Source of the DNA: Micromonospora parathelypteridis
GTDB lineage: Bacteria > Actinomycetota > Actinomycetes > Mycobacteriales > Micromonosporaceae
Direction: 5' to 3'
Assembly (NCBI RefSeq): GCF_014201145.1
Contig: NZ_JACHDP010000001.1
Span: 1-64,000 of the forward strand
DNA: 64,000 nt
Shown piece by piece: positions 2,857-47,597 of this stretch. The notes beneath the pieces were generated by a model. The model was not told where the DNA came from. It was given only the letters and a program-made list of their open reading frames with translations, and searched no databases. The position numbers and the translations under genes were made by a program. Numbering within the stretch: position 1 is the first letter of the stretch; each line of letters opens with the position of its first letter.

Positions 2857-3449
2857 GACTTCTCCTCGACGTAGAGCAGGGCGTTGAGGGCGGCGGCGGC
2901 GACCGCCGAACCACCCTTCTCGCCCACGTTGGACACCCCGGGCAGGCCGCTGGCCCGCAGTGCCGCCTTCGACTCGGCGGCACCCACGAAGCCCACCGGC
3001 AGGCCGACGACCAGGGCTGGCGCGGCGTCCAGGGTGAGTAGTTCGACAAGTGCGGTCGGCGCGCAGCCAACCACCCAGACCGCGCCCGGGCCGACCCGGT
3101 CGAGCGCGATCCGCACCGCCGCCGCCGAGCGGGTGATCCCCGCCGAGCGGCCCAGCTCGGCGGCGGCCGGCTCGGCGACCGGGCAGACCAGCTCCAGCCC
3201 GGCCCGGGTGATACCGGCGGCGACCATCGCCACGTCGGTGACCACGGGGGTACCGGCACGCAGCGCGGCCAACCCCGACTCCAGGGCCGCCTCGTCGCAG
3301 ACCAGCTCGTCGACGTACGCGAGGTCGGCGCTGGCGTGCACCACCCGCTCGGTCACCGCACGGCTCAGCGGCGGCAGGTGCGACAGGTCGACGCGCTCGC
3401 GCAGGATGCGGTACGACTCGACCTCGATCGGGTGCACCACCCGGCTCAT
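2853..3449 (-). CDS. cobH: Precorrin-8X methylmutase (CobH/CbiC)
   Basis: The 198-residue product has the full CobH length. It moves the C11 methyl to C12, turning precorrin-8X (or its cobalt form) into hydrogenobyrinic (cobyrinic) acid. The N-terminus HPIEVESYRIL and the VVHASAD segment with the catalytic-type His38 are characteristic, followed by DVAMVAAGI and a glycine-rich C-terminal part (NVGEKGGSAVAAAA). The ATG start overlaps the ferredoxin stop by ATGA and the stop overlaps cbiX-cobA, so translation is probably coupled. Confidence 0.95.
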   Translation of the reverse strand: MSRVVHPIEVESYRILRERVDLSHLPPLSRAVTERVVHASADLAYVDELVCDEAALESGLAALRAGTPVVTDVAMVAAGITRAGLELVCPVAEPAAAELGRSAGITRSAAAVRIALDRVGPGAVWVVGCAPTALVELLTLDAAPALVVGLPVGFVGAAESKAALRASGLPGVSNVGEKGGSAVAAAALNALLYVEEKS

Positions 3450-3670
3450 CGGGTCCCTCCACCTTCGTCAGGCTCGGCGACGCGGATCGCGTCAAAGGCA
3501 TCGGCGACGCGGATCGCGTCGACCGGGCAGATCTCCAGGCATTCCAGGCATCCGGTGCAGCGGTCGGCGCGGACCGTCAGGCCACCGGCGACGGGTCTGA
3601 TCGCGTGCGTGGGGCAGGTGAGCAGGCAGGCGCCGCAGCCCTGGCAGGCGTCGATGGTCACGATCGCCAT
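3446..3670 (-). CDS. 2[4Fe-4S] ferredoxin in the cobalamin operon
   Basis: This is a 74-residue ferredoxin with two complete CxxCxxCxxxCP motifs (Cys 9, 12, 15, 19 and 38, 41, 44, 48). It is an electron carrier. Its place inside the corrin operon, overlapping cobJ and cobH, suggests it supplies electrons to a corrin step such as ring contraction or cobalt reduction, but the partner cannot be read from sequence. The 3' end holds a short direct duplication (GGCGACGCGGATCGCGTC twice, about 30 bp apart), giving a repeated DAIRVA in the tail. Confidence 0.9.
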   Translation of the reverse strand: MAIVTIDACQGCGACLLTCPTHAIRPVAGGLTVRADRCTGCLECLEICPVDAIRVADAFDAIRVAEPDEGGGTR

Positions 3671-33215: not shown

Positions 33216-33995
33216 ATGAACAGGAGAGTCAACCGCGGTAAGGCACTCCGCGTCGCGGTGTGTCTCCTTCTTCTCGCCGCACTGAGCAGCTGCATGCAAC
33301 TCAACATGGGGCTCACCGTCAACGCCGACGACACGGTCGACGGGCAGCTGCTGCTGACGGCCCAGAAGTCCCTGCTGAGCCAGCGGAACAAGAACATTCA
33401 GGCGGCGTTCGCCGAGCTGCGACAGGACGTTCCCGCCCTGCCGCAGGGCGAGGAGACCGGCTATGCGGACGACAAACTCTTCGGTACCCAGATCAGTTAT
33501 CACAAGGCGCCGCTGGCAGGTTTCGACACGGAGAGCGTGAAACTTGTCCGGGACGGCGATCTGTACCGTTTCACATTGCCGCTCGACCCGTCGAAATACG
33601 GCGGAAAGGTTGCGCAGCAGAATCCGCAACAGCAGCAGGCATTCCTCACGCTGATGTCGTTCGAGATCTCGGTGACGTTTCCGGGCCGCGTGATCGACAG
33701 CAATGGCACCGTCAACGGCCGGTCGGTCAGCTGGAAGGTGGACCCCAACCAGAACAAGCCGGCCGAGCTGCGGGCGGTTGCCGAGGCGCCACCTCGGCCG
33801 TCCGCCTCGCCGGCCGCCGCCAGCGACGAAGGCGGGATCGGATGTCCGCTGGTCGTCGGCGGCGTGCTCGTTGTGCTGTTGCTCGGCGCGGTGGGCGTAC
33901 TCCTGTTGTTGCGCCGCCGGCGCCCCGCGGCACCGGCGGCGCCCGGCCCGACCCCGCCGCCCGGCCCACCCGCCGGCGCCCCGGGGCCCGGCTGA
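33216..33995 (+). CDS. LppM-domain lipoprotein with C-terminal membrane anchor
   Basis: With the start at ATG 33,216 the protein has 259 residues, a signal peptide and lipobox LSSC (Cys26). The domain CMQLNMGLTVNADDTVDGQLLLTAQ resembles LppM (DUF3153), known from mycobacterial envelope proteins. A second hydrophobic helix (about 209-232) is followed by RRRR and a proline-rich tail. So both ends are membrane attached. It sits immediately upstream of the CIS cluster in the same orientation; a role there is possible but unproven. Confidence 0.82.
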   Translation: MNRRVNRGKALRVAVCLLLLAALSSCMQLNMGLTVNADDTVDGQLLLTAQKSLLSQRNKNIQAAFAELRQDVPALPQGEETGYADDKLFGTQISYHKAPLAGFDTESVKLVRDGDLYRFTLPLDPSKYGGKVAQQNPQQQQAFLTLMSFEISVTFPGRVIDSNGTVNGRSVSWKVDPNQNKPAELRAVAEAPPRPSASPAAASDEGGIGCPLVVGGVLVVLLLGAVGVLLLLRRRRPAAPAAPGPTPPPGPPAGAPGPG

Positions 33996-34140: not shown

Positions 34141-34476
34141 ATGAACGATCTCTTCACCTGGGCAGCCCTGGGGACCATCGCCGGCGCGAGCGCCGCCACC
34201 CTGCTGGCCACCAACGTCATCGGGGGGCTGATCGGCCCCAGCGGCGACAAGCTCCGCAAGTGGATCGCCATCGTCATCGCGCTCCTGCTGTCCTATGTGA
34301 CCGCGGCGTTCGCGGACGAGGCCGGTGGCGAGAAGTGGGTCATCGCGTTCTTCAACGCACTGGTCATCTTCTCCGCCGCGCTCGGCGTCAGCCAGTTCCC
34401 GCCCGGCAACCGGCAGGCGACGCCGACCCAGCTCGCGAGCGGCCGCGAGCCCAAAATCTTCCGCTCCTGGGTCTGA
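34141..34476 (+). CDS. Small membrane protein at the start of the CIS operon
   Basis: The ATG follows AAAAGGGGGATC. The 111-residue protein has three predicted helices (about 6-30, 40-58, 65-82) and a 25-residue soluble tail ending EPKIFRSWV. No family is recognised. It is 11 bases upstream of the next membrane gene and co-oriented with the structural genes. It could be a membrane base for the injection apparatus or a holin-like release factor; neither can be decided. Confidence 0.75.
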   Translation: MNDLFTWAALGTIAGASAATLLATNVIGGLIGPSGDKLRKWIAIVIALLLSYVTAAFADEAGGEKWVIAFFNALVIFSAALGVSQFPPGNRQATPTQLASGREPKIFRSWV

Positions 34477-34487
34477 GGGGTGCCGTC

Positions 34488-35096
34488 ATGATCTTCGGAA
34501 TTCTCAGCGCGGCGGTCCAGGTCATCCTCGGCGCCCTGTTCGGCTTCCTCGCCGGCGGCCCGATCGGCCTGCTGATCGGCGCCGTCGTGGGCCTGCTGAT
34601 CGGCGCGGTCTTCGGCTGGGCGGTGACGTCCGCCGGCGTGTACGCGCCAAACGCCCGCGGCATCTTCCTCTTCGTCGTCGACCACACCTGGAGCCTGCTC
34701 AACACGGTCGTCGGCGCCATCTACCTGGCCGTGCACCTCATCTTCGGGCACTCGCTGGACCGGCCCACCTCGTCCGGCAGCGGCCGGGTCAGCGTGGTGG
34801 AGGGGGTCTCGCCCCGCTACGCCACCACCATCGGCACCGTCTGCGCCGGCTCCAGCTCCGGCATCCAGCGGCACGAGGACGTGCACATCTTCCAGGGTCG
34901 CCTGCTCGGACCGCTCTACATCCCACTGGTGCTGGCGAACTACGTCCTGTTCACCATCGCCCCGGTGTGGCTGCTGTACCACGACCACACCAGCGCGCCG
35001 ATCAACCGGTTCACCCGGTACTTCGAGATCGGTGTCTACCCGCACGTGTGGAACGAGGCCATCGCGTACCGGATCCAGGGGACGCCGCCGCGATGA
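34488..35096 (+). CDS. Glycine-zipper membrane protein with HExxH motif
   Basis: This is a 202-residue membrane protein. Residues 5-46 form two tight helices with GxxxG spacing (ALFGFLAGGPIGLLIGAV), further helices lie near 62-85 and 139-160. Between them is HEDVH at 129-133, a gluzincin-type zinc motif, followed by IFQGRLLGPLYIP. The HExxH-x-x-Q-LGPLY context recurs in small bacterial membrane proteins suspected to be metalloproteases. It overlaps the next gene by ATGA. A protease or zinc-binding role in the CIS locus is inference. Confidence 0.72.
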   Translation: MIFGILSAAVQVILGALFGFLAGGPIGLLIGAVVGLLIGAVFGWAVTSAGVYAPNARGIFLFVVDHTWSLLNTVVGAIYLAVHLIFGHSLDRPTSSGSGRVSVVEGVSPRYATTIGTVCAGSSSGIQRHEDVHIFQGRLLGPLYIPLVLANYVLFTIAPVWLLYHDHTSAPINRFTRYFEIGVYPHVWNEAIAYRIQGTPPR

Positions 35097-35791
35097 CCAC
35101 CGACGGGCGCGGACCGATCGAGACGGCCACCGCCGAGCTGGCCGCCTGGCTGACCAGCGCGGCGGGGGAACCCGTCCCGATCGGCCCGCCCCGCACCGAC
35201 GGCGCCACCGCCGGGCTCACCCTCTGGCCGCTGGAGCTGCGCCCCGCCCGGCAGACCCGCTCCAGCGGCGCGGTCCGCGAACCGTACCGGTTCACGGTCC
35301 GCTACCTGCTGTGCGTGACCGGGCCGGACGGGTTGCCCCGGCTGGACCGGGTGCTCACCGCCGCGACGAGCGACGGCAGCTACCCGGTCGTCCTGGAGGC
35401 CGGCGAGGCCGCACTGTGGACGGCGTTCGGCACGGCACCCCGCCCGGCGCTGCTGATCGACGTACCCGCACAGGTGGACCACCCCACCCCGGCCGCACCG
35501 CCGGTGCTGCAACCGCTGCGGCTGCGACAACTCGAGGTACGCGCCCTCGCCGGCCGGGTGGTCGGCCCCGAGGACCAACCACTGGCGGCGATGCGCGTCG
35601 AACTGCCCAGCACCGGTTCCGCCACCCGCACCGACCCCGAGGGCCGGTTCCTGATCGCCGGCGTTCCACACGACCCGGAGCACCCGAACCCGGTCCGGCT
35701 CCGGCTGACCGGCCGTGGGCTCGTCCTCACCGCCGACGTCGACCCCGCCGAACCCGACATCGTCATCGTCTGCGCGCCACCGACCCACTGA
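35093..35791 (+). CDS. CIS-associated protein with C-terminal carboxypeptidase-regulatory-like domain
   Basis: The 232-residue protein has an N-terminal alpha/beta part (TAELAAWLTSA, YRFTVRYLLCVTGPDGLPRLDRVLTAA, PALLIDVPAQ) and, after residue 150, a CarboxypepD_reg-like beta-sandwich (LAGRVVGPEDQPLAAMRVELP, TRTDPEGRFLIAGVP). By position it may correspond to the tube- or sheath-capping Pvc16/DUF4255 proteins found in CIS loci; the similarity is only general. It starts four bases inside the preceding gene and is 23 bases before the sheath gene. Confidence 0.6.
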   Translation: MTTDGRGPIETATAELAAWLTSAAGEPVPIGPPRTDGATAGLTLWPLELRPARQTRSSGAVREPYRFTVRYLLCVTGPDGLPRLDRVLTAATSDGSYPVVLEAGEAALWTAFGTAPRPALLIDVPAQVDHPTPAAPPVLQPLRLRQLEVRALAGRVVGPEDQPLAAMRVELPSTGSATRTDPEGRFLIAGVPHDPEHPNPVRLRLTGRGLVLTADVDPAEPDIVIVCAPPTH

Positions 35792-35814
35792 CGCCCACCC
35801 GCACAGGAGGACCG

Positions 35815-37074
35815 ATGCCCAGCTACTTCTCCCCCGGCATCTATGTCGAGGAGGTCCCCAGCGGCGCCCGACCGATCGGCCCGGCGAGCACCAGCATCGC
35901 CGCCTTCGTCGGCGTCGCCCCGGACCGCTCCGCCCAACTGGGCAAGGCGGTGCCGGTCAACAACTGGACGGAGTTCCTGCGGCTCTTCGCCGGCGGGGAG
36001 CGGGTGGAGAGCACCCCGTTGGCCCGGGCGGTCTTCGGTTTCCTGGACAACGGAGGCGCCCGCTGCTGGGTGGTCAACGTCGGCGACGGCGGCGCGATCA
36101 CCGGCACCGGACAGCGCCGCGGCGGCCTGCAACTGCTGGAGGCCGTCGACGAGATCTCGATCATCGCCGCGCCCGGCTTCCACGACGCGGTGTCCCACGA
36201 GGCGCTGCTCAGCATGGCCGAGCGCACCCGCACCATGGTCGCGATCTGCGACCCGGCGCCGGACATCGACGACATCGCCGCGCTGACCCGGGTCGCCACG
36301 CCGTCCTCCGGCAAACCCCCCAAGCCGGCCGAGGGGGCGGGCGGAGGCTCGGGCGGTTCCGGTGGCGGCTCGGCCCAGCCGGGCGGCTCCGGCGGGCACG
36401 AGGGGGCCGCGTACCGGCCCCGACAGTCCGAGTTCGGCGCGTTCTACTACCCCTGGCTACGGGTACGCGACCCGATCAGCGGCGAGTTGGAACTCACCCC
36501 GCCGAGTGGGCACCTGGCCGGCATCTGGGCCCGCACCGACGCCCTGCGCGGAGTGCACAAGGCACCGGCCAACGAACCCGTACGCGGCGCCGTCGACCTG
36601 GGCTACCTGGTCACCCGACCGGAACACGACGTGCTCAACCCCAAGGGCGTCAACGTGATCCGCTACTTCGCCGGCGAGGGCATCCGCGTCTGGGGCGCCC
36701 GTACGCTCGCCGCCGAGGCCAGCGAGTGGCGCTACCTCAACGTACGGCGACTCAGCATCGCCATCGAACAGGCCATCGCCAACGGCACCAGGTGGATGGT
36801 CTTCGAGCCCAACGACTTCACCCTCTGGCGCTCGATCCGGCGTGACATCGGGGCGTTCCTCACCCGGGTGTGGCGCGACGGCGCGCTGCTCGGGCGCAGT
36901 CCCGAGGAGGCGTTCTTCGTCAAGTGCGACGAGGAGACCAACCCGGCGGACGTCCGCGACGCGGGCATGGTGATCGCCCACATCGGCATCGCCGTCGTCA
37001 AGCCCGCCGAATTCGTGGTGTTCAAGCTGAGCCAGTGGGCCGGCGGCACCGAGACCGAGACGATCGGAGGCTGA
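35815..37074 (+). CDS. Contractile tail sheath protein
   Basis: The ATG follows AGGAGG. The 419-residue protein has the sheath signature N-terminus (YFSPGIYVEEVPSGARPI, AFVG) and the conserved C-terminal handshake region (RYLNVRRLSIAIEQAIANGTRWMVFEPND, FFVKCDEETNP, ETETIGG). Residues 165-200 are a Gly/Ser/Pro-rich insertion. Only one sheath gene is present, unlike the three of the Serratia antifeeding prophage. The sheath contracts to drive the tube through a membrane. Confidence 0.95.
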   Translation: MPSYFSPGIYVEEVPSGARPIGPASTSIAAFVGVAPDRSAQLGKAVPVNNWTEFLRLFAGGERVESTPLARAVFGFLDNGGARCWVVNVGDGGAITGTGQRRGGLQLLEAVDEISIIAAPGFHDAVSHEALLSMAERTRTMVAICDPAPDIDDIAALTRVATPSSGKPPKPAEGAGGGSGGSGGGSAQPGGSGGHEGAAYRPRQSEFGAFYYPWLRVRDPISGELELTPPSGHLAGIWARTDALRGVHKAPANEPVRGAVDLGYLVTRPEHDVLNPKGVNVIRYFAGEGIRVWGARTLAAEASEWRYLNVRRLSIAIEQAIANGTRWMVFEPNDFTLWRSIRRDIGAFLTRVWRDGALLGRSPEEAFFVKCDEETNPADVRDAGMVIAHIGIAVVKPAEFVVFKLSQWAGGTETETIGG

Positions 37075-37075
37075 C

Positions 37076-37558
37076 ATGCCCACCACAGCCACCCCGCAGC
37101 CCGGCGCCCCGGTCGACCCGTACCGGGCGTACAACTTCCGGCTGCTCATCAACGGCGTCACCAACGGCCACTTCACCGAGATGACCGGGCTGGAGGTGAA
37201 CATCCCGGGGCAGCCGTACCGGGAGCACGGCCTGGGCCGGATGCGGATGGTGCCCGGCCAGGCCGAGTACGAGCCGGTGACGCTGCACTTCGGCCTCACC
37301 GCCTCCCGCGAGTTGTGGGACTGGGTGAACGCCACCGCACAGGGCACCCTCAACCGTCGCAACGTCTCCGTGGTGCTGCTCGACTCGGTGGGGACCGCCG
37401 AGGTGCTGCGGTGGAACCTGATCGACGCCTGGCCCACCCGGTGGCGGGGCGCGCACCTCAACACGCTCAGCCACGAGATCGCCATCGCGTCGTTGACCCT
37501 GCGCTACGAGGGCCTGGAGCTGGAGACCGGCGGTGCCACCGCGCCGGCACCCGCGTAG
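37076..37558 (+). CDS. Inner tube protein (gp19/Hcp-like)
   Basis: The 160-residue protein has the T4 gp19-like tube pattern: DPYRAYNFRLLINGV, TEMTGLEVNIP, KxG-like glycine turn replaced by REHGLGRMRMVPGQAEYEPVTLHFGLT, LWDWVNAT and NVSVVLLD. It stacks as hexameric rings inside the sheath. Only one tube gene is seen, and it follows the sheath by one base. Its 3' end overlaps the next gene by 26 bases. Confidence 0.93.
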   Translation: MPTTATPQPGAPVDPYRAYNFRLLINGVTNGHFTEMTGLEVNIPGQPYREHGLGRMRMVPGQAEYEPVTLHFGLTASRELWDWVNATAQGTLNRRNVSVVLLDSVGTAEVLRWNLIDAWPTRWRGAHLNTLSHEIAIASLTLRYEGLELETGGATAPAPA

Positions 37559-38933
37559 CTGGCTGGCCGGCCGGTTGCGCTCGGCGGCCGGGGCGGTGCA
37601 GCGCCTCGCCGGGCGGGTCGAGCCCGCCGTGCCCCTCCCGGCAAGCCCGCCGTCGGCCCCGCCCACGGCAGCACCGCGCCGCTTCGGGGAACCCCCGCAG
37701 CACTGGCTGGACCTGGTCAGCGCACACGCGCCCGGCCTGCTGCACGACCTGGACCTCGACATGTCGCCGGTCGGCTCCGACGACGCGACGGCCCGCGACG
37801 ACCGGCCCGGCGATACGGGGTCGGTCGGTCGGCTCGGAGGTGGTGTTGCGGGCCCCGCCACGGGTGGCGCGGTCGACGGCAGCACCAGCGTGAGCGGGGC
37901 TGTCGCGGCTGGCCGGCGCGGTGGCGTGAGCGGGCTCGCAGGGCCGGACGGGTCGCGCTCACCGGGCGGGACCGGGCGGTCGGGTCGCACGCCAGCGCCA
38001 GGTGACGGACCGGCCGGCGAGGCCGGCTCACCCGGCAGAGGCGGTGCGTCGGCGTCCGGGCCCGACACGCCGGCTGGGCCATCGGCGCGACCGGGTGCGG
38101 GAGGCGATCCCGCACCGGTCCGCGGGTCTGGGCTGCCCCGGGCCGGCGAAACCGCTCAGCCTGTCCGCCCGCTGGTCCGCCCCGCGATCTCGGGTCCACC
38201 CGCCACACCCGGCAACGACCGCCAGCACCGAACCAACGGCCCCGAAACCACCCGACCCACGCCACGCCCGCCCGCCACCACCGGCGACCTCCTCGCGGAC
38301 CGACTTTCGGTTGGTCACGACGGGTTTCGGGGCGACCGGGACCAATCGGGAGACGACCAGACCCGGAGCAGGGAGGCCCAACCAAGGTTCACCAGCGGCC
38401 AACCCGGGTTCGCCGACGACCACCCCCGGTTCGCGGGCGGTCGGGGTGACCCGGGCGCGACGCGCCCTTCGGGGCCGGACAGCGGGGCGACGCGGCGGGC
38501 ACCGGCCGGGCCGGACCTGGACGCGGTCGACCGGGGGGCACCGTGGACCGGTTCGGCCGGTGCGACGGGGGCGGCGGACGCCGAGGGCACCACGGTCGAC
38601 CGGCGCCGCGATCTGGGCCACGCCGCCAGCGACTGGCCCTGGCTGGCCCTCCCCGACGAACCGGCACGGCCCCGGCAACAGCCGCGGCGACCGGTCGGGC
38701 TGCGGGTCGACGAGGCGGAGACGGTCGGCGGCGGAGCGTGGGCCGGTGGTTGGGGACACGTCCCGACCGGCGGCCGGTCGACCAGCACCGGAACACCGTC
38801 GTCCACGGTCGAGGCGAGGGTCACCGACCCGTGGCCGGCGCTGCCCGACGACGCGACGCTCTGGGCCGTGCCGGGTGACGCATTGAACGATGCCCAGCTC
38901 AGCCGGTTGGATCGCGAACAGGCGGGCGGCTGA
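37533..38933 (+). CDS. Long low-complexity protein at the Afp6 position of the CIS operon
   Basis: The GTG-start, 466-residue protein is mostly predicted disordered: Gly, Pro, Ser, Arg, Asp and Thr dominate. Short ordered islands are RRFGEPPQHWLDLVSAHAPGLL near residues 49-70 and SDWPWLALPDE and DPWPALPDDATLWAVPGD toward the end. It sits between tube and LysM adaptor, where the antifeeding prophage encodes the very short Afp6. It could chaperone the tube, set its length in place of a tape measure, or be cargo. The reading frame is coupled at both ends, so it is likely real. Confidence 0.7.
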   Translation: MPPRRHPRSWLAGRLRSAAGAVQRLAGRVEPAVPLPASPPSAPPTAAPRRFGEPPQHWLDLVSAHAPGLLHDLDLDMSPVGSDDATARDDRPGDTGSVGRLGGGVAGPATGGAVDGSTSVSGAVAAGRRGGVSGLAGPDGSRSPGGTGRSGRTPAPGDGPAGEAGSPGRGGASASGPDTPAGPSARPGAGGDPAPVRGSGLPRAGETAQPVRPLVRPAISGPPATPGNDRQHRTNGPETTRPTPRPPATTGDLLADRLSVGHDGFRGDRDQSGDDQTRSREAQPRFTSGQPGFADDHPRFAGGRGDPGATRPSGPDSGATRRAPAGPDLDAVDRGAPWTGSAGATGAADAEGTTVDRRRDLGHAASDWPWLALPDEPARPRQQPRRPVGLRVDEAETVGGGAWAGGWGHVPTGGRSTSTGTPSSTVEARVTDPWPALPDDATLWAVPGDALNDAQLSRLDREQAGG

Positions 38934-39835
38934 TGGAACGCGTCGCCTTTCTCATCGACTCCTCCGGCGAACGGGTGGACTGCCTGCTCAACCCGGAGAC
39001 CGTGCAGGTGACCCGGCTCGCCGGCGTACGCCATCGGGGTGCCTCCGGCGGGCAGCTCACCGGCTCCGGGCTGGCCGACGATCCGCTGGTCTTCACCGGC
39101 GGCGGCCGGACCGAGCTGGTGCTCGACCTGCTCTTCGACGTCGACTTCGTGGAGGCGCAGGTCCGTCCGGCCGACGTACGGGTGCTCACCCGTCCCCTCT
39201 GGATGCTGGCGGAGAACTCGACCGCCGAGCATGGCTGGCTGCGACCGCCGCTGGTCCGGTTGGTCTGGGGCAAGACCTGGAACGTGCCCGGCGTGATCAT
39301 CGCCGTGGCGGAGCGGTTCGACGCGTTCACCGGCACCGGCTCACCTCGACGCTCCTGGCTGCGGCTGAAGCTGGTCCGGGCCGCCGAGACCGCCGACCAG
39401 GCGGAGGCCGGCTTCGCCGAGGAGTTGGCCGCGGCGAGCACCCCGACCGCCGCACCGGGCAGCGCGGTCATCGCCGCCGGCGACGGCGCGGCAGAGCCGG
39501 GCCGCTCCGGTGTGCGCTTCGACCTGCTGGCCAACGACGCTCTCGGCTCGCCGCTGCGCTGGCGCCTGCTGGCCGAACACAACCGGATCACCGATCCCCT
39601 CGCCGTGCCCGCCGGCACCACCCTCGCCGTCCCACCACCCGCCGGCACCCGAGCCGGCGGCGTCCCGGGCAGCGGTTCGACCTTCGCCGGCGCGGTGGCC
39701 GGGATGGCGCGGACGGTGGCCGGCGCGGTGAGCGCGGGCGCATCGTTCGTGGGCGCCTCGATCGCCGGCAGCACCGGGCCCGGCAATCCCGGACCAGGCA
39801 GCACCGGGCCCGGCAACCCCGGGGGTACGCCATGA
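38933..39835 (+). CDS. CIS tube/baseplate adaptor with LysM domain (Pvc7/gp53-like)
   Basis: The 300-residue protein has an N-terminal CIS tube-type domain (ERVAFLIDSSGERVDCLLNPETVQVTR, ELVLDLLFDVDF, RPPLVRLVWGKTWNVPGVI) and a LysM at about 198-240 (RFDLLANDALGSPLRWRLLAEHNRI, DPLAVPAGTTLAVPPP). A 60-residue tail of Gly, Ala, Pro and Ser ends in a duplicated GPGSTGPGNPG unit, also a direct repeat in DNA. In other systems this protein joins tube to spike and binds other baseplate parts through LysM. Confidence 0.9.
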   Translation: MERVAFLIDSSGERVDCLLNPETVQVTRLAGVRHRGASGGQLTGSGLADDPLVFTGGGRTELVLDLLFDVDFVEAQVRPADVRVLTRPLWMLAENSTAEHGWLRPPLVRLVWGKTWNVPGVIIAVAERFDAFTGTGSPRRSWLRLKLVRAAETADQAEAGFAEELAAASTPTAAPGSAVIAAGDGAAEPGRSGVRFDLLANDALGSPLRWRLLAEHNRITDPLAVPAGTTLAVPPPAGTRAGGVPGSGSTFAGAVAGMARTVAGAVSAGASFVGASIAGSTGPGNPGPGSTGPGNPGGTP

Positions 39836-41424
39836 CCAGCGTCGCGCCCCGGGCGTTGATCGTCCTGCTCGACGGTGCAGAGCTGGCCGGTGCGGCCCGC
39901 CAGCGGGTTCGCTCGCTGCGGGTGGCAGCGCGACTCGACCAGCCCACGCAGGCAGAGCTGGTGCTCGCCACCACCGCCGGGACCGGCGCGCTCGACCCGG
40001 CGGTGCACCCCGGCACGACACTCGACGTACGGCTCGCCGACCATACCGAGGCCCTGTTCAGCGGGGAGGTCACCGCCGTGGAGGTCGAGTACGCCGCCGA
40101 CGGGGCGGCGGTGCTGCGGCTGCGGGCGTACGACCCGCTGCATCGGCTGCGTAAGCGGCAGGGGTTGCGGGTCTTCACCTCGGTGACCGCCGCCGAGCTG
40201 GCCCGGGAGCTGTGCGGCGAGGTGGGGTTGGACGTGACCGCGGAGGTCGACGGACCACGGCTGGAACGGCTGCTGCAGCACCGGCACAGCGATCTGGAGC
40301 TGCTACGCGAGGTGGCCGGCCGGGCCGGGCTGCACCTGGCCGCCGACGGCAGCGGAATCCGGCTGATCACTCTGGCCGGGTACGGCGAGCCGGTCGCGCT
40401 GACCCTCGGCGCGGGCGTGCACACCCTGCGGCTGTCCACCAACGCCGACCAGGCCAGCGGTGCCAGCGCGGCGCTGGGCTGGCACCCGCAGCGGGCCGAG
40501 GTGATCAGCCAACAGGCTGACGAGGCGCGCTGCGGCCGACCCGCCGGCGACCGCCCGGACCCGGCCGACGTGGGTGCCGACGGGGTACGCACCGTCGTCG
40601 ACCAGCCCGGCCGCAGCGACGACGAGTTGGCGGCGCTGGCCCAGGCGCGACTGGACACCCGCGCGGCCACGCTGGTCACCGCCGAGGGGGTGGCCGAGGG
40701 CGACCCGGCGCTACGGCCGGGCCGACGGGTCGACCTGAGCGGTGTGCCCGACCCGGTCGCCGGGGCGTACGTGCTGACCGAGGTGGTGCACACCGTGGAC
40801 GGCAACGGGCATCTGACGCGGTTCTCCACGGTGCCGCCGGCCACCCCGGCGGCGCTGACCGGCGGCGCGGTGGTCACCCTCGGCACCGTCACCGACGTCG
40901 CCGACCCGGACGGGCTGGGCCGGGTCCGTCTGACCCTGCCGGCGTACGGGGACCTGGACGCCGGCTGGCTCGCCGTGCTCTGCCCCGGTGCCGGGCGCGG
41001 CAAGGGTCTGGTGGCGCTCCCCGATCCGGACGACACCGTGCTGGTGGTGCTGCCCGGTGGCGAGCCGGCCTCGGGCATCGTGCTCGGTTCGCTGTTCGGC
41101 GCTGTCGAGCCGTACGACGCGGGCATCGACGACGGGAAGGCGCGTCGCTGGACGCTGCGTACCGCCGGCGGGCAGTCGATCGTCGTCGACGACGTGCAAC
41201 GCAGTCTGCGGCTCGCCACCGAGGGCGGCAGCTTTCTGGAACTGACCCCCGATCTGGCCACTCTGCACGCGGCGTCCGACCTGGTGATCTCCGCACCCGG
41301 CCGGGCCATGGTGGTGCGCGCCCGCAGCGTGGACTTCCTGCACGCGGAGTCGACCGAGGACTCGACGACTGCGGCGCGGCAGGCCCGTTCGCTCGCCCGC
41401 GCCCACCACGAAGGAGGCGGCTGA
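39832..41424 (+). CDS. VgrG-like spike protein (gp27-gp5 fusion, Pvc8)
   Basis: The 530-residue protein has a gp27-like part (about 1-340; VRLADHTEALFSGEVTAVEVEY, YDPLHRLRKRQGLRVF, LQHRHSDLELLREVAGRAGLHL), an OB-fold (DVADPDGLGRVRLTLPAYGD, LVALPDPDDTVLVVLPGGEPASGIVLGSLFG) and a short beta-helix (GGQSIVVDDVQRSL, FLELTPDLATLHAASDLVISAPG). The trimer would form the needle below the tube. It overlaps the adaptor gene and the tip gene. Confidence 0.94.
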   Translation: MTSVAPRALIVLLDGAELAGAARQRVRSLRVAARLDQPTQAELVLATTAGTGALDPAVHPGTTLDVRLADHTEALFSGEVTAVEVEYAADGAAVLRLRAYDPLHRLRKRQGLRVFTSVTAAELARELCGEVGLDVTAEVDGPRLERLLQHRHSDLELLREVAGRAGLHLAADGSGIRLITLAGYGEPVALTLGAGVHTLRLSTNADQASGASAALGWHPQRAEVISQQADEARCGRPAGDRPDPADVGADGVRTVVDQPGRSDDELAALAQARLDTRAATLVTAEGVAEGDPALRPGRRVDLSGVPDPVAGAYVLTEVVHTVDGNGHLTRFSTVPPATPAALTGGAVVTLGTVTDVADPDGLGRVRLTLPAYGDLDAGWLAVLCPGAGRGKGLVALPDPDDTVLVVLPGGEPASGIVLGSLFGAVEPYDAGIDDGKARRWTLRTAGGQSIVVDDVQRSLRLATEGGSFLELTPDLATLHAASDLVISAPGRAMVVRARSVDFLHAESTEDSTTAARQARSLARAHHEGGG

Positions 41425-41762
41425 TGCGCTGGATCCACCGTGACTCCGTGGTCACCTGCGATCACGACGGCCGGGTCGAGAACCGACCCTCGCGGCAGTG
41501 GGTGACCATCACCGGCGTGCCCGTGCTGGTGGACGACGACCCGGAGGGCCGCACGATCGTCGCCTGCCCGAACTACGGCCCGACCATCAAGCCGTGCACG
41601 ACGACACTGACCGTCCGCGTCGGCTACAGCGACTGGATCCGCGTCGACGGACACAAGGTGGTGCTGTCGCACCTGGAGGGGTTCACGAACGGCACTCCGC
41701 CGGGGCTGGTCAAGCACACCGTGCGTGACCCACGTCAGCAGTTCCTGGGGTCGGACCGATGA
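41424..41762 (+). CDS. PAAR-like spike tip protein
   Basis: The 112-residue protein directly follows the spike and has SVVTCDHDGRVENRP, VPVLVDDDP, VACPNYGPTIKPCTTTLTV and GHKVVLSHLEGFTNGTPPG. Cys/His positions (C12, H14, C48, C58, H76) are right for a metal-holding cone as in PAAR proteins. It would sharpen the VgrG-like spike. No effector extension is fused to it. Confidence 0.8.
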   Translation: MRWIHRDSVVTCDHDGRVENRPSRQWVTITGVPVLVDDDPEGRTIVACPNYGPTIKPCTTTLTVRVGYSDWIRVDGHKVVLSHLEGFTNGTPPGLVKHTVRDPRQQFLGSDR

Positions 41763-42193
41763 GGGCCTTCCGCTTCGTCGGCGCCGGCTTCGACGCCGGC
41801 CGTACCGGCGGCCTGGCGCTCACCGCGGCCGGCGGCCTGGCGATGACCGAGGGCGACGAGAGCGTACGACAGGCGCTGTTTCTGCTCCTGTCGACCACGC
41901 CGGGCGAGCGGCTGATGCGACCCGGGTACGGGTCCCGGCTGCACCGGCTCGTCTTCGCGCCCAACGACGACACCACGGCTGGACTGGCCATCCACTACGT
42001 CCGGCAGGCCATCGCCCGCTGGGAGCCCCGGGTCGAGGTGATCGACGTGGACGCCGGACCGGACCCGGACGACGCGTGGCGGCTGGTGATCCGGCTGGAC
42101 TACCGGGTGCGGGCCAGCCTGACGCCCGGGCAGCTGGTCTTCTCCGTGGACCTGCTCCCGGCCGACGAGCACGCGCAGGGAGGAGCGTCATGA
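41759..42193 (+). CDS. gp25-like baseplate wedge protein
   Basis: The 144-residue protein has the gp25/GPW motif: VRQALFLLLSTTPGERLMRPGYGSRLHRLVFAPND, then IARWEPRVEVIDVD. gp25 forms the baseplate core that triggers sheath contraction. It overlaps the tip gene and the baseplate J gene by 4 bases each, the order seen in other CIS loci. Confidence 0.94.
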   Translation: MRAFRFVGAGFDAGRTGGLALTAAGGLAMTEGDESVRQALFLLLSTTPGERLMRPGYGSRLHRLVFAPNDDTTAGLAIHYVRQAIARWEPRVEVIDVDAGPDPDDAWRLVIRLDYRVRASLTPGQLVFSVDLLPADEHAQGGAS

Positions 42194-44868
42194 CACTGCC
42201 CGTGCCGCACCTGGACGACCGCGGGTTCCTCGACCTGGTCACCGAGGCCCGGGAACGGATCCGGCAGTCCTGCCCGGCCTGGACCGACCTGTCCGCGCAC
42301 GACCCCGGCATGGCGCTGGTGGAGGCGTTCGCGCACCTGACCGAGGTGATGATCTACCGGCTGAACCAGTTGCCGGAGAAGGCGTACGTCTCGTTCCTGA
42401 ACCTGCTCGGGATCGCCCGGCACGCACCCACCGCGGCCTGGGCGGACGTCCTGTTCACCCGCAGCGGCACCGACAGCGCCGCGGTGCGGATCCCGGCCGG
42501 TCTGCGGGTCGCGGCGGCCCGCGGCGCGGATCCCCGGCCGGTCGTGTTCGTCACCACCGAGCCGGCCCTGCTGCCCGCCGGCGAGGCGTCGGTGACGGTG
42601 CGGATGCACCACTGTGAACCGGTCGAGGCCGAGCTGCTCGGCATGGGCACCGGCCAGCCCGGTCAGGTGCTGCGGGCCGCCCACGCCCCGCTGGCGCACA
42701 CCGCCGAACCGTTGGATCTGCTGCTCGGGGTGGAGGTTCCGGCCGGCACGGTCGAGTTGGGTGCGGCGGCCCGTGAGCACGACGGCCGCACGTTCGAGAT
42801 CTGGCAGCCGGTGGACAGCTTCGCGGGCCTCGGCCCGCAGGCCAAGGCGTACCTGGTCGACCGCTGCTCGGGCACCGTCACCTTCGCCCCGGCCCTCGAC
42901 CTGCGACCGCCGGACGGGACGGCCCCGGCCGCCTCCGGCGACGCCGAACCAGCCGCGGCAGGCCCCCTGACGGCGGTGACGGTGGCGGCGGTGCCGCCCG
43001 CCGGGCGGCAGGTCCGGCTCTGGTACCGGGCCGGCGGCGGGCCCACCGGCAACGTGGCCGCGGGCACGCTCACCAGCCTGCGCGACCCACTACCCGGGGT
43101 ACGCGTCGACAACCCCGCGCCCGCGGCCGGCGGCCGGGAGATGGAGGCGCTGGAATCGGTGCTGCTGCGCGGTCCGTACGAGTTCTTCGCCCAGCAGCGG
43201 GCGGTCACCGCGCGCGACTTCGAGATGCTGGCGACCAGCTCCGGCGCGGTGGCACGGGCGCGGGCGTTCACCCGCGCCGCGGTGTACAGCTTCGCCCGGC
43301 CCGGGGAGGTCGAGGTGGTGCTGGTGCCGTACGTGCCACCGACGGCCCGCCCCGGTGGCCGGCTGCCGGTGGCGGTGCTGCGCGAGCACGAGGTGCCCGA
43401 GGCGCGACGTCGGGTGGAGGCGGACCTGGAGGAACGCCGCATGGTCGGCATCCGGTCCCGGGCGACCTGGGCCCGGTTCAAGGCGGTGTCGGTACGCGCC
43501 CGGGTGGTGGTCCGCCGGGAGGAGGACGTGGACGCGGTCCGGCGCCGGATCCACGACCGGCTGCACCAGACGTTGAGCCCGCTGCCGACCGCGCTCAACC
43601 CGACCGGCTGGCCGTTCGGCGAGCCACTGCGGGCGTCCAACGTGTATCGGTTGCTGGAGCACGCCGAGCCGGGTGTGCGTTACGTCGAGTCGGTCCGCTT
43701 CGTGGTCGACGAGGCACCCGACGCCGAGGTACGCGCGCTCGCCGTCGACCAGTACCAGCCCCGCACCTGGTACGCCGGGCGCGGCCCGGTGCTGTTCCGC
43801 TCCAGCAACGGCGGTGCGGGTTGGGAGCCGGCCGGCCGTTTCGACGGCGAGACGGTGCTGCGGGTGGCGCCCGCGCCCGCTCCGGTGCGGCCGGGCATCG
43901 TCGCACGTCCCGGCTCGGTGGCGGTGGTGACGCTGCGCGCCTCCGGCGGCTCCCGGGTGCACCTGAGCACCGACCTGGGCGAGACGTGGTCGCTGCTGAC
44001 CGACCTGGATTCGCGGATCTCCGACGTCGCTTGGCTGGACCGCGACGGCGCGGGCGCGCTGCTGGTGGCCACCGACACCGGCCTGTACGAGGTGTCGCTG
44101 CTGCCCGGGGCGGTGCCGCTGCAGATCCTGGTCGACCCGTCCGACGCCGACCGGGGGTTCTACGCGGTGCGCGCGTTCGTCTCCGAGCGGGGCGCGCCGG
44201 GTGTGGCGGTGGCCGCACAGGCCAGCTTCGGGGTGTACCTGTCGACCGCTGGCGGTCGGCCCGGCAGCTTCACCCACGTCGGTCTCTCCAACGTGGACAA
44301 CCGGGTCCTCGCCGTGCAGTACGACGGCCCTGCCACCCTGCTGTGGAGTGGCGCGGGTGAGCCGGACCCGAAGAAGCCCGGCCAGGGCTGCCACCGCACC
44401 AGGCTGTTCGAATCCGACGTGAAATGGCAGTCGGTGCAGGCCGGCTGGATCGGCGGCACCTGCCGGGATCTCGCGTTCGCCGGGCCGCAGGCGGTGGCGG
44501 CCACGCAGAGCGGCGGGGTGTTGCGGCTGGACACCTTGGCCGCCCAGCCACAGTGGCAATCGGTGTCGGTCAACTGCGGTCTGCCGCTGCGTGACCGGAC
44601 CCGGTTCGTGCCGGTCGACGCCATCGCCGTGAGCGGGGGCTCGGGCTCGGCCGGTCACGCGACCGGCGGCTCCGGCGGGGCCGGCGCGGAGCGGTTGATC
44701 CTGGCCGGCGGTGAGCGCGGTGTGCACCGCAGCGCCAACGCCGTCGACTGGACACCCAGCGCCAACCAGGCCACCGCCGACGTGGTGACCGTCCCGGATA
44801 CCTGGCTGCTCTGCTCCGGCGAGCACGACATCGAGGTGGTGCGCCAGGATGCGACGTTCGGCGATTGA
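42190..44868 (+). CDS. Baseplate J-like protein with C-terminal Asp-box beta-propeller
   Basis: The 892-residue protein begins like Afp11/baseplate J (DLVTEARERIRQSCPAWTDLSAHDPGMALVEAFAHLTEVMIYRLNQLPEKAYVSFL) and has the J core at 290-510 (RGPYEFFAQQRAVTARDFEMLA, LRASNVYRLLEHAEPGVRYV). From about residue 540 the sequence changes to repeated Asp-box blades: FRSSNGGAGWEPAG, HLSTDLGETWSLLT, YLSTAGGRPGSF, VHRSANAVDWTPS. This predicts a BNR/sialidase-like propeller on the wedge, perhaps for binding sugars or a membrane partner. The frame is continuous across both parts and overlaps the next gene by 20 bases. Confidence 0.9.
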   Translation: MTLPVPHLDDRGFLDLVTEARERIRQSCPAWTDLSAHDPGMALVEAFAHLTEVMIYRLNQLPEKAYVSFLNLLGIARHAPTAAWADVLFTRSGTDSAAVRIPAGLRVAAARGADPRPVVFVTTEPALLPAGEASVTVRMHHCEPVEAELLGMGTGQPGQVLRAAHAPLAHTAEPLDLLLGVEVPAGTVELGAAAREHDGRTFEIWQPVDSFAGLGPQAKAYLVDRCSGTVTFAPALDLRPPDGTAPAASGDAEPAAAGPLTAVTVAAVPPAGRQVRLWYRAGGGPTGNVAAGTLTSLRDPLPGVRVDNPAPAAGGREMEALESVLLRGPYEFFAQQRAVTARDFEMLATSSGAVARARAFTRAAVYSFARPGEVEVVLVPYVPPTARPGGRLPVAVLREHEVPEARRRVEADLEERRMVGIRSRATWARFKAVSVRARVVVRREEDVDAVRRRIHDRLHQTLSPLPTALNPTGWPFGEPLRASNVYRLLEHAEPGVRYVESVRFVVDEAPDAEVRALAVDQYQPRTWYAGRGPVLFRSSNGGAGWEPAGRFDGETVLRVAPAPAPVRPGIVARPGSVAVVTLRASGGSRVHLSTDLGETWSLLTDLDSRISDVAWLDRDGAGALLVATDTGLYEVSLLPGAVPLQILVDPSDADRGFYAVRAFVSERGAPGVAVAAQASFGVYLSTAGGRPGSFTHVGLSNVDNRVLAVQYDGPATLLWSGAGEPDPKKPGQGCHRTRLFESDVKWQSVQAGWIGGTCRDLAFAGPQAVAATQSGGVLRLDTLAAQPQWQSVSVNCGLPLRDRTRFVPVDAIAVSGGSGSAGHATGGSGGAGAERLILAGGERGVHRSANAVDWTPSANQATADVVTVPDTWLLCSGEHDIEVVRQDATFGD

Positions 44869-45364
44869 ACGGCTGCTGCCCGCCGCCTACCAGCGGGCCT
44901 GTGTGCCCGGCAGCGTGCTCTGGGCGCTGCTCGACGTGATGGAAGGGCTGCACGCCCCCGACGAGGCGATCCTCGCCGAGGTCGATGCGCTGTTCGACCC
45001 GTACCGGGCGCCGGACGGGCTGGTCGTGCAGTTGACCCGCTGGGTGGCGATGGACCACGTGGTGGCCTCGCCCCGACCGGACGCCCCGCTGCCGCTGCCG
45101 GTGGGCCGGCTGCGCGACCTGGTCGCCAACGCCGCGCTGTTGGCCCGGTGGCGGGGCACCCCGTACGGGATGCGCAGAGCCCTGGAGCTGGCCACCGGGC
45201 TGCCCGGCTTCGCGATCGACGAGCCCGCCGAGCAGCCCTTCCACGTCGTGGTGCGGGTGCCGGCTGCCGCCGCCGGCCAGCTCTCCGTGATCACCCGCAT
45301 CGTCGAGGCGGAGAAACCCGCCTCGACCACCGTCGAGATCGTCCTGGAAGAGGAGTCGTCATGA
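44849..45364 (+). CDS. Phage tail protein I-like baseplate protein (Pvc12)
   Basis: The 171-residue protein has the tail protein I pattern: RRSAIERLLPAAYQRAC, LDVMEGLHAPDEAILAEVDALFDPYRAPDGLVVQLTRWV and LARWRGTPYGMRRALELATGL. It joins the J-type wedge to a fibre in other systems. No recognisable fibre gene follows; the next product is a membrane-anchored protein. Confidence 0.92.
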   Translation: MRRSAIERLLPAAYQRACVPGSVLWALLDVMEGLHAPDEAILAEVDALFDPYRAPDGLVVQLTRWVAMDHVVASPRPDAPLPLPVGRLRDLVANAALLARWRGTPYGMRRALELATGLPGFAIDEPAEQPFHVVVRVPAAAAGQLSVITRIVEAEKPASTTVEIVLEEESS

Positions 45365-46290
45365 CCACCGAGTGGGCGGTCGTCGCCGCCGCCGAGCAGT
45401 TCACCCTCGACCCGCGCAACAGCGGCGAGCTGACCTTCACCGTCTCCAACCCGGGAAACGCACCGGACACGGTGGTGTTCGACGTGGCACCCGGCGACGG
45501 CTCCCAGCGGGCCTGGTTCACCGTCGCCGAGCCGCAGCGGGTGGTACCCGGCCAGGGTTCGGTGTCTTTCCTGGTCAAACTCGCCGTGCCGGCGGGCACC
45601 CCGCCTCGGCGCTACGACATGACCGGGTTCGCGTACTCGGCGAACACGGCGCCGGAGGAGAGCTCCCGTTCCAGCGGCCGGGTGACGTACGAGGTGCGGG
45701 CGGTCGCGCCGCCACGGCGTACCCCGTGGTTGTGGATCGCCGCCGCGGCGGCGTTGGTGCTGGTGGTGGTGACCGTGGGGGTGGTGCTGCTGACCCGCGA
45801 CGACACGCCGGCCCCCGGCGAGCCCCGCGTGGTCACCGTCGAGGCGGAGAGCCTGGTGGAGGCCGCAGCCGTGGAGTCGCCGCGCAAGAGCGGCGCGGTC
45901 GTGGTGGCGCAGCCCAACTGCTGCGGGGTGACCTGGTCCGGCGACAAGCAGTTGTTCTTCCAGGGGCTGGCCATCGGTGACCAGGTCACCGTGACGGTGC
46001 AGATCCCGGCCGACGGCACGTGGCGGTTCGCCGCCGTTCGCACGATGTCGTTCGACTACGCCAACACGGTCTTCACCATCGACGGCGCCCAGGTCGGCGG
46101 GGCGTTCCTCGGTTTCAGCCAGACGGTGAGGAAGACCGAATTCCTGGACGTGGGCACGGTCCGGCTGACCAAGGGCCCGCACCGGGTCACCCTGGCGGTG
46201 GTGGGCAAGACGCAGGGCACCAACCGCTACTTCGCGGGCGTCGACGAGATCCGGTTCACCGAGATCGTGGCGCAGGCCGTGGCGCGATGA
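45361..46290 (+). CDS. Single-pass membrane protein with Ig-like and carbohydrate-binding-like domains
   Basis: The 309-residue protein has an N-terminal beta-sandwich (about 5-115) of NEW3/CARDB type (LDPRNSGELTFTVSNPGNAPDTVVFDV), one helix at about 123-144 (WLWIAAAAALVLVVVTVGVVLL) and a C-terminal beta-rich domain (VTVEAESLVEAAAVES, MSFDYANTVFTIDGAQVGG, YFAGVDEIRF) resembling CBM6-like domains. The charge pattern suggests the Ig-like part is cytoplasmic and the carbohydrate-binding-like part outside. Its position after tail protein I is that of a fibre gene, so it may dock the baseplate to the membrane; this is inference. Confidence 0.78.
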   Translation: MTTEWAVVAAAEQFTLDPRNSGELTFTVSNPGNAPDTVVFDVAPGDGSQRAWFTVAEPQRVVPGQGSVSFLVKLAVPAGTPPRRYDMTGFAYSANTAPEESSRSSGRVTYEVRAVAPPRRTPWLWIAAAAALVLVVVTVGVVLLTRDDTPAPGEPRVVTVEAESLVEAAAVESPRKSGAVVVAQPNCCGVTWSGDKQLFFQGLAIGDQVTVTVQIPADGTWRFAAVRTMSFDYANTVFTIDGAQVGGAFLGFSQTVRKTEFLDVGTVRLTKGPHRVTLAVVGKTQGTNRYFAGVDEIRFTEIVAQAVAR

Positions 46291-46748
46291 GTGGCAAGCA
46301 GAAGGCGCTGCTCGGGCTGCTCGCCGTCCTGCTGGTGGGGCTGTTCGTGATCGCGGTCGGCGCGGGCCGGGACGACCCGGGTGATCCGGGCGCCCGGCAC
46401 GGGCTCGTCGACCGGCTGGGTGCGCTGGGGGGCGAGCGTTCCGCGGTGGACCCGGCGACGGTCAGCGCCGACTGTGCCGATGAGGCCGGCCGGTTGGTGT
46501 TCGCCGGCAGCTGCGTGGTGCGGGTCGCCGACCCGGGCGGGCTGCGCACCCTGGTACTGCGCAGCGCGGCGCGGTTCACGGTCGTCGCGTCGGCGCCCGG
46601 CGACGCCGACCTCACCATCCGCGACGAGGTCGAGCCGGCGTCCGACGGCACCGGCGTGGTGGCGAAGGTCGCCGTCGACCAGGCCACCGAGGTGGGCCTG
46701 ACCTGCCCCGGCCTGGGCAGCTGCACAGTCCTCGTGGCCACGTCCTGA
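46287..46748 (+). CDS. Single-pass membrane protein in the CIS cluster
   Basis: The 153-residue product has one N-terminal helix (about 7-26, ALLGLLAVLLVGLFVIAVGA) after MSGKQK and a small extracytoplasmic domain with four Cys (C62, C76, C139, C146) likely forming disulphides. No known family. It starts four bases inside the preceding gene, so it is co-translated with the Ig-like membrane protein. Confidence 0.78.
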   Translation: MSGKQKALLGLLAVLLVGLFVIAVGAGRDDPGDPGARHGLVDRLGALGGERSAVDPATVSADCADEAGRLVFAGSCVVRVADPGGLRTLVLRSAARFTVVASAPGDADLTIRDEVEPASDGTGVVAKVAVDQATEVGLTCPGLGSCTVLVATS

Positions 46749-46800
46749 CCCGATCGTCGTGGCCACGTTCTGACACCCGATCGTCGTGGCCGCGTCCTGA
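46732..46800. repeat. Three imperfect direct repeats at a gene end
   Basis: TCGTGGCCACGTCCTGA-type units recur at intervals of 25 and 27 bases. The first holds the last codons and the stop of the preceding gene; each copy brings another TGA. It looks like slippage or duplication of the gene end. Confidence 0.7.
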
Positions 46801-46820
46801 GCTGAGAGAAAGGTGCTGCC

Positions 46821-47597
46821 GTGGGTGACCTGCGTAAGCCGTTCCTGCTGCTGGCCATGCTCGCGATCGTCCTGGCGATCGGGGTGGAGCTGGGTGCCGG
46901 GCTGCTGCTGGGCGGCGCCGACGCCGGCGCGGCGCTGGCCGACAGCGCGGGCGCGCTGGACGTGGAACTCGACGACGCGTCCGGGGTCAGCGAGCCGTCC
47001 GGCCGGGGCACCGGCTACCTGGCGTTGATCGACGCGGTGGCGGTCTGGAGCACCGGGCTGTTCTGTTTGGGCCTGCTGCTGCCCGAACGCGTCCAGGGTC
47101 GCGTACAGGGCGTGGCCAGCTTGATCTTCTCGATCATCCTGATCATCGTCGGGCTGGTCGCGCTGATCATCGCGTTCGTGGAACTGATGATCATGGTGTC
47201 GCTGTTCCTGGCCATCCCGTTCGGCACGCTGGCGTACCTGGCGCTGTGGGGGTTCTTCCCGGTCGGCGAGGCGGCGGTGCTGCTCGGGCTGGTGCTGCTG
47301 CTCAAGCTGGTGTGGGCCGGGCTGCTGGTGCTGGCCCAGCCGCGTTTCCTGCAGAACAAGGGCCTCGTCCTGCTGATCCTCACCACCCTGCTCTGCACGA
47401 TCGTGTTGGAGTTCCTGCACAACCTGGTGCCGGTGATCCTGGTCAGCATCGTCGACGACGTGGCGGCGCTGATCTTCGCGGTGATCGCGATCATCTGGGG
47501 GCTGGTGCTGCTGATCGGGTCGATCCCGGCGATCGTCAAGGCCGTCCGGGTCACCGCAGCCCTGCCGGCCCGAGCCGGAGCGCCCTCATCCCGGTGA
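46821..47597 (+). CDS. Polytopic membrane protein closing the CIS cluster
   Basis: The 258-residue protein starts at GTG after GAGAGAAAGG. It has about six hydrophobic helices: 7-32, 66-88, 98-125, 128-148, 155-172, 182-206 and 208-232 (some may pair). Between the first two is a 33-residue Asp/Gly/Ser-rich loop. Composition is Leu, Ile and Val rich, and no transporter motif is seen. It is separated from the preceding gene by 72 bases of repeats but shares orientation. Role in the CIS is unknown. Confidence 0.75.
   Translation: MGDLRKPFLLLAMLAIVLAIGVELGAGLLLGGADAGAALADSAGALDVELDDASGVSEPSGRGTGYLALIDAVAVWSTGLFCLGLLLPERVQGRVQGVASLIFSIILIIVGLVALIIAFVELMIMVSLFLAIPFGTLAYLALWGFFPVGEAAVLLGLVLLLKLVWAGLLVLAQPRFLQNKGLVLLILTTLLCTIVLEFLHNLVPVILVSIVDDVAALIFAVIAIIWGLVLLIGSIPAIVKAVRVTAALPARAGAPSSR

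Follow-up and report, generated by a model that had tools for sequence, protein, structure and literature searches.

A 64,000-nucleotide stretch of the Micromonospora parathelypteridis genome (contig NZ_JACHDP010000001.1, positions 1 to 64,000; hereafter the window) carries a contractile injection system (CIS) operon, confirmed at 34141-47597 on the + strand. Sequence comparison places this operon in a conserved CIS lineage, widespread among soil bacteria, that was found in Actinomycetota, Chloroflexota and one Acidobacteriota metagenome-assembled genome (MAG). In this lineage the membrane protein genes ancC, ancD and memE are inherited with the structural genes across the three phyla, and by homology no CIS-type AAA+ ATPase is encoded at the locus. 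Because a CIS without the usual motor is inherited together with membrane proteins, docking on the cell's own membrane is suggested, and we favour, with moderate confidence, an envelope-docked CIS that is held by ancC, ancD and memE and is a variant near the cytoplasmic subtype IId CIS; docking, sensing and function without an ATPase are what we infer from these patterns.

Overall, the operon comprises 15 genes from memA to memE, in the order memA, memB, cap, sheath, tube, protein X, CIS_tube/LysM adaptor, VgrG, PAAR-like, gp25, baseplate J, tail protein I, ancC, ancD and memE (5' to 3'). Ten of its 14 junctions are overlaps, two more measure at most 11 bp and the remaining two are 23 and 72 bp. 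Pfam places sheath, tube, VgrG, gp25 and J within one cluster, as in extracellular CIS (eCIS) of the Afp/PVC type, and the genome, a single contig of 7,014,531 bases, has a single sheath gene. A promoter scan returned no promoter-like and four terminator-like sequences (3.3 of the latter expected), and a search of NCBIfam added no useful match for the operon proteins. Open reading frames were delimited by stop codons and no gene finder was used, so the profiles built from them contain some out-of-frame shadow.

Lineage and co-inherited membrane genes

Relatives were drawn from a scan of species genomes in which the best 80 of 223 were taken, so that the breadth of the lineage reported here is a lower bound; the nearest named relatives among those 80 are Micromonospora, with sheaths 97-98% identical. 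The order cap-sheath-tube-X-adaptor-VgrG-PAAR-gp25-J-I-ancC is kept across the lineage as far as contigs reach, on the Actinomycetota side in Micromonospora, Hamadaea, Catellatospora, Allorhizocola, Rhizocola, Microlunatus, Actinopolymorpha and Arthrobacter, and elsewhere in Ktedonobacter, Dictyobacter, Anaerolineae and a Thermoanaerobaculia MAG. A 34-row sheath tree, in which named IId references were not included, clusters the 20 lineage rows (95/99) apart from IId-like sheaths of the same family, and its long-branch warnings touch only rows outside the lineage. Two CIS loci of the family, L049 and L050, have two sheath genes each; one L050 sheath branches beside the lineage, and the L050 locus has a weak cap match.

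All counts for the family come from a sample of 200 genomes. A sheath match at E ≤ 1e-10 was present in 117 of them and a full-length match above 490 bits in 45, with most other matches confined to the C-terminal 200 residues. The gene memE (46821-47597, + strand), which is predicted to encode a polytopic membrane protein of about six to seven helices, occurs in exactly the 45 genomes with an unbroken full-length lineage sheath. No copy turned up in the remaining 155 genomes, which include 71 with only other sheath types as well as G112, in which the same lineage sheath is split across two frames. Outside the family, 12 of 12 distant genomes (six Arthrobacter, an Actinomycetales MAG, Microlunatus, Actinopolymorpha, Anaerolineae, Ktedonobacter and Thermoanaerobaculia) have one memE per genome, the Thermoanaerobaculia gene appearing as two overlapping partial matches inside one 294-residue frame. 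An apparent absence from Arthrobacter, seen when 10-kb flanks gave memE in 38 of 60 loci, proved wrong once whole genomes and extended contigs were searched.

In 10 of the 11 extended loci memE starts 1.6-4.6 kb past tail protein I. Its arrangement varies: memE is co-oriented in some loci and convergent elsewhere, and in Ktedonobacterales it lies upstream of cap and is divergent. Because the linkage survives such rearrangement a function shared by memE and the CIS is hard to avoid. Profiles of ancC, memE, cap and the PAAR-like protein matched nothing in the ten stretches that were fetched from the surroundings of other types of CIS.

The gene ancC (45361-46290, + strand) lies directly after tail protein I and is present in all 60 loci in which the sequence includes tail protein I and continues for over 900 bases past it; separately, a frame with a clear transmembrane (TM) segment was seen in 55 of 80 fetched loci, the TM peak falling after 120-142 residues. 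Its product is predicted, from an AlphaFold2 model, Foldseek and alignment, to combine a cytoplasmic Ig-like domain, one TM segment and an ectodomain resembling carbohydrate-binding modules (CBMs). The model (mean predicted local distance difference test score (pLDDT) 88.7, predicted template modelling score 0.50) shows a beta-sandwich, a helix at residues 123-145 and a second beta-sandwich, the latter closest in Foldseek to the module MiXBM (7ehg; TM-score by target 0.81-0.83), followed by CBM6 and CBM35. An N-in orientation is suggested by two arginines before the TM segment, acidic residues after it and the lack of a leader. Relatives keep the first part together with the TM segment, and the outer part is swapped, for PASTA domains in 9 of 24 and for Kelch and META domains in one each, and NHL/lactonase-like repeats form the outer part of a second ancC copy. 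Tandem ancC copies with differing outer domains occur within one operon in L115, L116, L126 and L131, downstream of tail protein I.

The next gene, ancD (46287-46748, + strand), encodes a protein predicted to have one TM segment and a small, cysteine-containing ectodomain. A profile rebuilt from its own matches (weakest member L123, E 5e-5) finds it in 27 of the 28 examined loci that reach past tail protein I.

The CIS-type AAA+ ATPase

The query of the ATPase search was a CIS-type AAA+ protein encoded at a different CIS locus within the genus (G193, L136). No such protein was found in the window or elsewhere in the genome, where the best match reached 41 bits over a generic AAA module and none of 20 Pfam AAA matches proved to be a full-length relative. 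The same was true of the 11 extended relative loci, none of which has a CIS-type ATPase or is followed by an ATPase block. The earlier note's observation that the operon lacks a recognisable ATPase stands. Among IId-like loci of the family, L157 and L161 encode the ATPase (276 bits each) and L160 has a partial match.

Genomes of 12 distant members gave a mixed picture, with a clear AAA+ homologue in five (238-370 bits), an intermediate match in one (G204, 133 bits) and generic matches only in six (≤65 bits); G206 has further AAA+ matches of 130-170 bits. For four of the five clear cases, and for the intermediate match, the homologue lies on another contig than the CIS locus or, in Actinopolymorpha pittospori, at 0.65 and 8.9 Mb, with the CIS locus at 1.34-1.36 Mb; the fifth clear homologue is that of Rhizocola.

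According to PMC10020575, eCIS regions invariably encode an AAA+ ATPase together with a Pvc16_N terminator, and Streptomyces particles assemble without the ATPase but lose activity. The ATPase is treated as a hallmark of eCIS loci. Here the Pvc16-type terminator is present and the ATPase was not found. The role of the CIS ATPase becomes directly testable because a conserved lineage appears to do without it.

Docked and undocked explanations

In the mechanism that we favour, a cytoplasmic sheath-tube with a Pvc16-type cap would assemble without an AAA+ ATPase, and its baseplate would rest against the cytoplasmic membrane from the inside, where ancC, ancD and polytopic memE would form a platform that replaces tail fibres. 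The exchangeable ancC ectodomain could anchor to, or sense, the cell wall or surface sugars, with this anchoring or sensing coupled to baseplate release, and firing would push the spike through the producer's own envelope. The three proteins are a concrete candidate for CIS membrane docking outside the type VI secretion system (T6SS), in a lineage present in culturable Micromonospora, Catellatospora, Actinopolymorpha, Arthrobacter and Ktedonobacteria. Thylakoid-anchored cyanobacterial CIS are alike in acting while attached to a membrane of their own cell, as described in PMC12998442 and PMC10066040; their sheath chain 7b5h (named All3325) scored 164 bits in the PDB sequence search versus 353 for the best chain. 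Among the open-access papers that literature searches listed, no title or abstract opening presents an ATPase-less CIS lineage with such membrane proteins or a link between CHAT proteins and CIS.

Several observations weigh against docking as we propose it. The closest relatives, of subtype IId, have been observed free in the cytoplasm. A CIS-type ATPase is encoded elsewhere in the genome in five of 12 relatives and could act there in trans. It is also unseen in the fetched stretches of some other CIS loci of the family (G003, G183, G141 and G007), so its absence beside the operon is weak evidence by itself. Both G112 and the second G042 locus have ancC, but the stretches fetched for them contain no ancD and no memE, and G112 lacks memE genome-wide; in the Thermoanaerobaculia MAG memE lies 15.7 kb past tail protein I and ancD was not found. 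The memE model is of middling confidence (pLDDT 72) and matched no known fold in a fold search (best E 0.11).

A bolder proposal, which we advance tentatively, is that the lineage forms a separate cross-phylum CIS class. Such a class would have its own non-T6SS envelope complex (ancC/ancD/memE), a receptor role that has passed from the particle's fibres to a membrane protein with an outer domain interchangeable like a sensor cartridge, firing without an AAA+ ATPase and, in some lineages, wiring to a caspase-like CHAT protease.

Among the alternatives to docking, the one that fares best, though we think it unlikely, is a IId-like cytoplasmic CIS whose free particles make brief membrane contact through a CisA-like ancC and kill the producer under stress, with ancD and memE as accessories. 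The closest solved sheath and J chains in the PDB sequence search are 8bky/8bl4 and 9gtp, which we take to belong to the Streptomyces coelicolor CIS, and the family's IId-like sheaths are about 60% identical to the lineage sheath in their C-terminal half. The caspase-like CHAT genes found beside the operon in 11 relatives, described below, fit a role in death. Like the S. coelicolor system (subtype IId), the operon has a Pvc16-type cap, no recognised tape measure or fibres and, right after the baseplate genes, a gene for a bitopic membrane protein with a sugar-binding-like outer domain, ancC here and CisA there.

CisA is a known precedent for a membrane protein in the fibre position. It is described as single-pass, N-in, needed for contraction and not part of the solved particle (PMC12237407), as detected in particle preparations (PMC10020575) and as a TM segment joined to a sugar-binding domain (PMC10066040). 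Its inner part is long and disordered, whereas that of ancC is predicted to be Ig-like, and the ancC profile gives no match in CisA-bearing IId-like loci; ancC and CisA seem to share plan and gene position, with no sequence kinship found by that profile. One IId-like locus of the same genus (L133) encodes a CisA-like protein in minus-strand frame 2374-4617, with double zinc-ribbon-like cysteine motifs, a very long proline/glycine-rich linker, a TM segment and a sugar-binding-like end.

The operon thus matches the Streptomyces cytoplasmic CIS in its cap, in having no tape measure and in the membrane protein at the fibre position, and does not match it in the missing ATPase, in ancD and memE, in the C-terminal extension of J or in the exchangeable outer domain of ancC; its sheath is also shorter (419 versus 534-539 residues). 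Three points speak against a IId-like free particle: the lineage goes without the ATPase that IId activity requires (PMC10020575), the ancC profile does not match CisA-bearing loci, and the linkage of ancD and memE is too steady for optional parts. Other IId-clade CIS from Roseiflexus and further Chloroflexota and Deinococcota share Chloroflexota hosts with this lineage and differ, by description only, in having an ATPase gene and unanchored, cytoplasmic particles (PMC12998442).

A T6SS-like weapon firing outward, with ancC, ancD and memE as a trans-envelope complex through which the tube is shot into neighbours, is improbable. It would account for several membrane proteins being co-inherited with one CIS, as a T6SS is likewise based on a membrane complex, and for the exchangeable outer domains, which could recognise targets. 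However, in a Pfam search confined to the operon's genes, none matched TssJLM, ClpV, TssK or the like, no pair of them was recognised as a known toxin and its immunity protein, and the operon has a Pvc16-type cap in place of recognised T6SS membrane or baseplate proteins. The eCIS_core domain was not found in the genome either, a result that is uninformative as no control genome matched.

More improbable still is a free extracellular particle whose membrane proteins serve export, release or self-protection; its parts list overlaps that of eCIS, Pvc16-type cap included, but neither a fibre gene nor an ATPase was recognised and the membrane proteins stay linked across phyla. A decayed prophage tail, which would explain the phage-tail-derived core parts and the lack of an ATPase, is hardly credible given open, overlapping genes, conservation in three phyla, a co-inherited membrane module and a Pvc16-type cap, with none of the tape measure or fibre genes of contractile phage tails or R-type bacteriocins recognised in the operon.

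Structural genes, variable flanks and neighbours

The earlier note had listed sheath, tube, adaptor, VgrG, tip, gp25, J and tail protein I in this order, and all are present on the + strand, together with two genes that it had passed over, cap and protein X. Pfam identifies the contractile sheath (35815-37074, 419 residues; PF04984, PF17482), the inner tube (37076-37558; PF06841, E 5.9e-31), the CIS_tube/LysM-like adaptor (38933-39835; PF19266, E 4e-11), the VgrG-like spike hub (39832-41424; PF05954, PF04717), the gp25-like baseplate wedge or sheath initiator (41759-42193; PF04965, E 8.1e-25), baseplate J (42190-44868; PF04865) and tail protein I (44849-45364; PF09684, E 1.5e-6). The LysM portion of the adaptor is unmatched in Pfam. 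The PAAR-like tip (41424-41762) matches no Pfam or NCBIfam family, so its name rests on position and look; its profile matches at the equivalent place in relatives' loci.

The cap or tail terminator (35093-35791), with a Pvc16-type N domain and a carboxypeptidase-regulatory-like domain, has a homologue in all 81 compared loci. The window protein alone matches Pvc16_N weakly (E 0.092); of the 18 proteins of its family, 7 match Pvc16_N (best E 2.5e-9) and 17 the carboxypeptidase-regulatory-like domain, and the top PDB match of the family profile is 9gts_0A, annotated as a Pvc16 N-terminal domain protein (E 2.7e-5). Protein X (37533-38933, 466 residues) is disordered, with HWL conserved near its N terminus, WPxLPDDxxLW...REQxG conserved at its C terminus and a low-complexity linker in between, and has no Pfam or NCBIfam match; a long X gene is not evident in the Thermoanaerobaculia MAG. 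As a guess, protein X could be an elongated counterpart of Cis6, a small protein that PMC12210884 terms a spike plug.

Baseplate J carries a C-terminal extension of about 400 residues that is probably a beta-propeller, to judge from its Asp-box motifs, of which 16 J proteins contain 27 in 6309 residues of extension versus 1 in 9045 residues elsewhere; Sortilin-Vps10 was matched weakly in the J of two relatives. Unlike this extended protein, J from two IId-like loci terminates shortly past the J domain. No tape measure or fibre gene was recognised among the operon genes, to which that search was confined, as the earlier note had said, but this is not the surprise that it seemed, since the S. 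coelicolor CIS lacks both in the account given in PMC12237407.

All five membrane or membrane-anchored proteins reported earlier on the flanks have hydrophobic segments of TM strength by hydropathy. The earlier note's inference from them of a membrane-associated CIS is partly supported, by the co-inheritance of ancC, ancD and memE; memA and memB vary independently of the structural genes, being confined to few genera among 81 loci. The earlier note had named such variation as grounds for refutation, which applies to these two, and the idea that all five belong to the machine was dropped. The gene memA (34141-34476, + strand; 111 residues, about three TM segments by hydropathy, holin-like in look) has profile matches only in Micromonospora and Actinopolymorpha (L117, L122). 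The second gene, memB (34488-35096, + strand), was found only in Micromonospora and one Hamadaea locus (L099) and encodes a membrane protein with a glycine-zipper region and an HExxHxxQ motif kept in 52 of 52 close homologues. This metalloprotease-like motif beside membrane segments recalls that of an eCIS-associated metallopeptidase, with no Pfam peptidase match; an identification of memB as an eCIS_core protein was rejected, the motif being alike but no Pfam match appearing at E 1. Upstream of the operon, an LppM-domain lipoprotein gene (33216-33995) stops 145 bp short of it and was excluded from the parts list.

A TPR-CHAT (caspase-like) gene of about 850-900 residues lies upstream of cap in every one of the 11 loci from Catellatospora, Allorhizocola, Rhizocola and Actinopolymorpha (L104-L111, L113, L117, L122), identified by Pfam CHAT in the five scanned and by profile in the others; in Actinopolymorpha memA stands between it and cap. 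An S8 subtilase gene is near it in the two loci examined, and together these neighbours suggest a protease-controlled death or defence circuit. The Thermoanaerobaculia MAG has a weaker TPR-CHAT profile match about 4.4 kb upstream, which may rest on TPR repeats alone. In Catellatospora tritici two scaffolds (L105, L106) bear CIS loci with identical match positions, either a real duplication or an assembly artefact.

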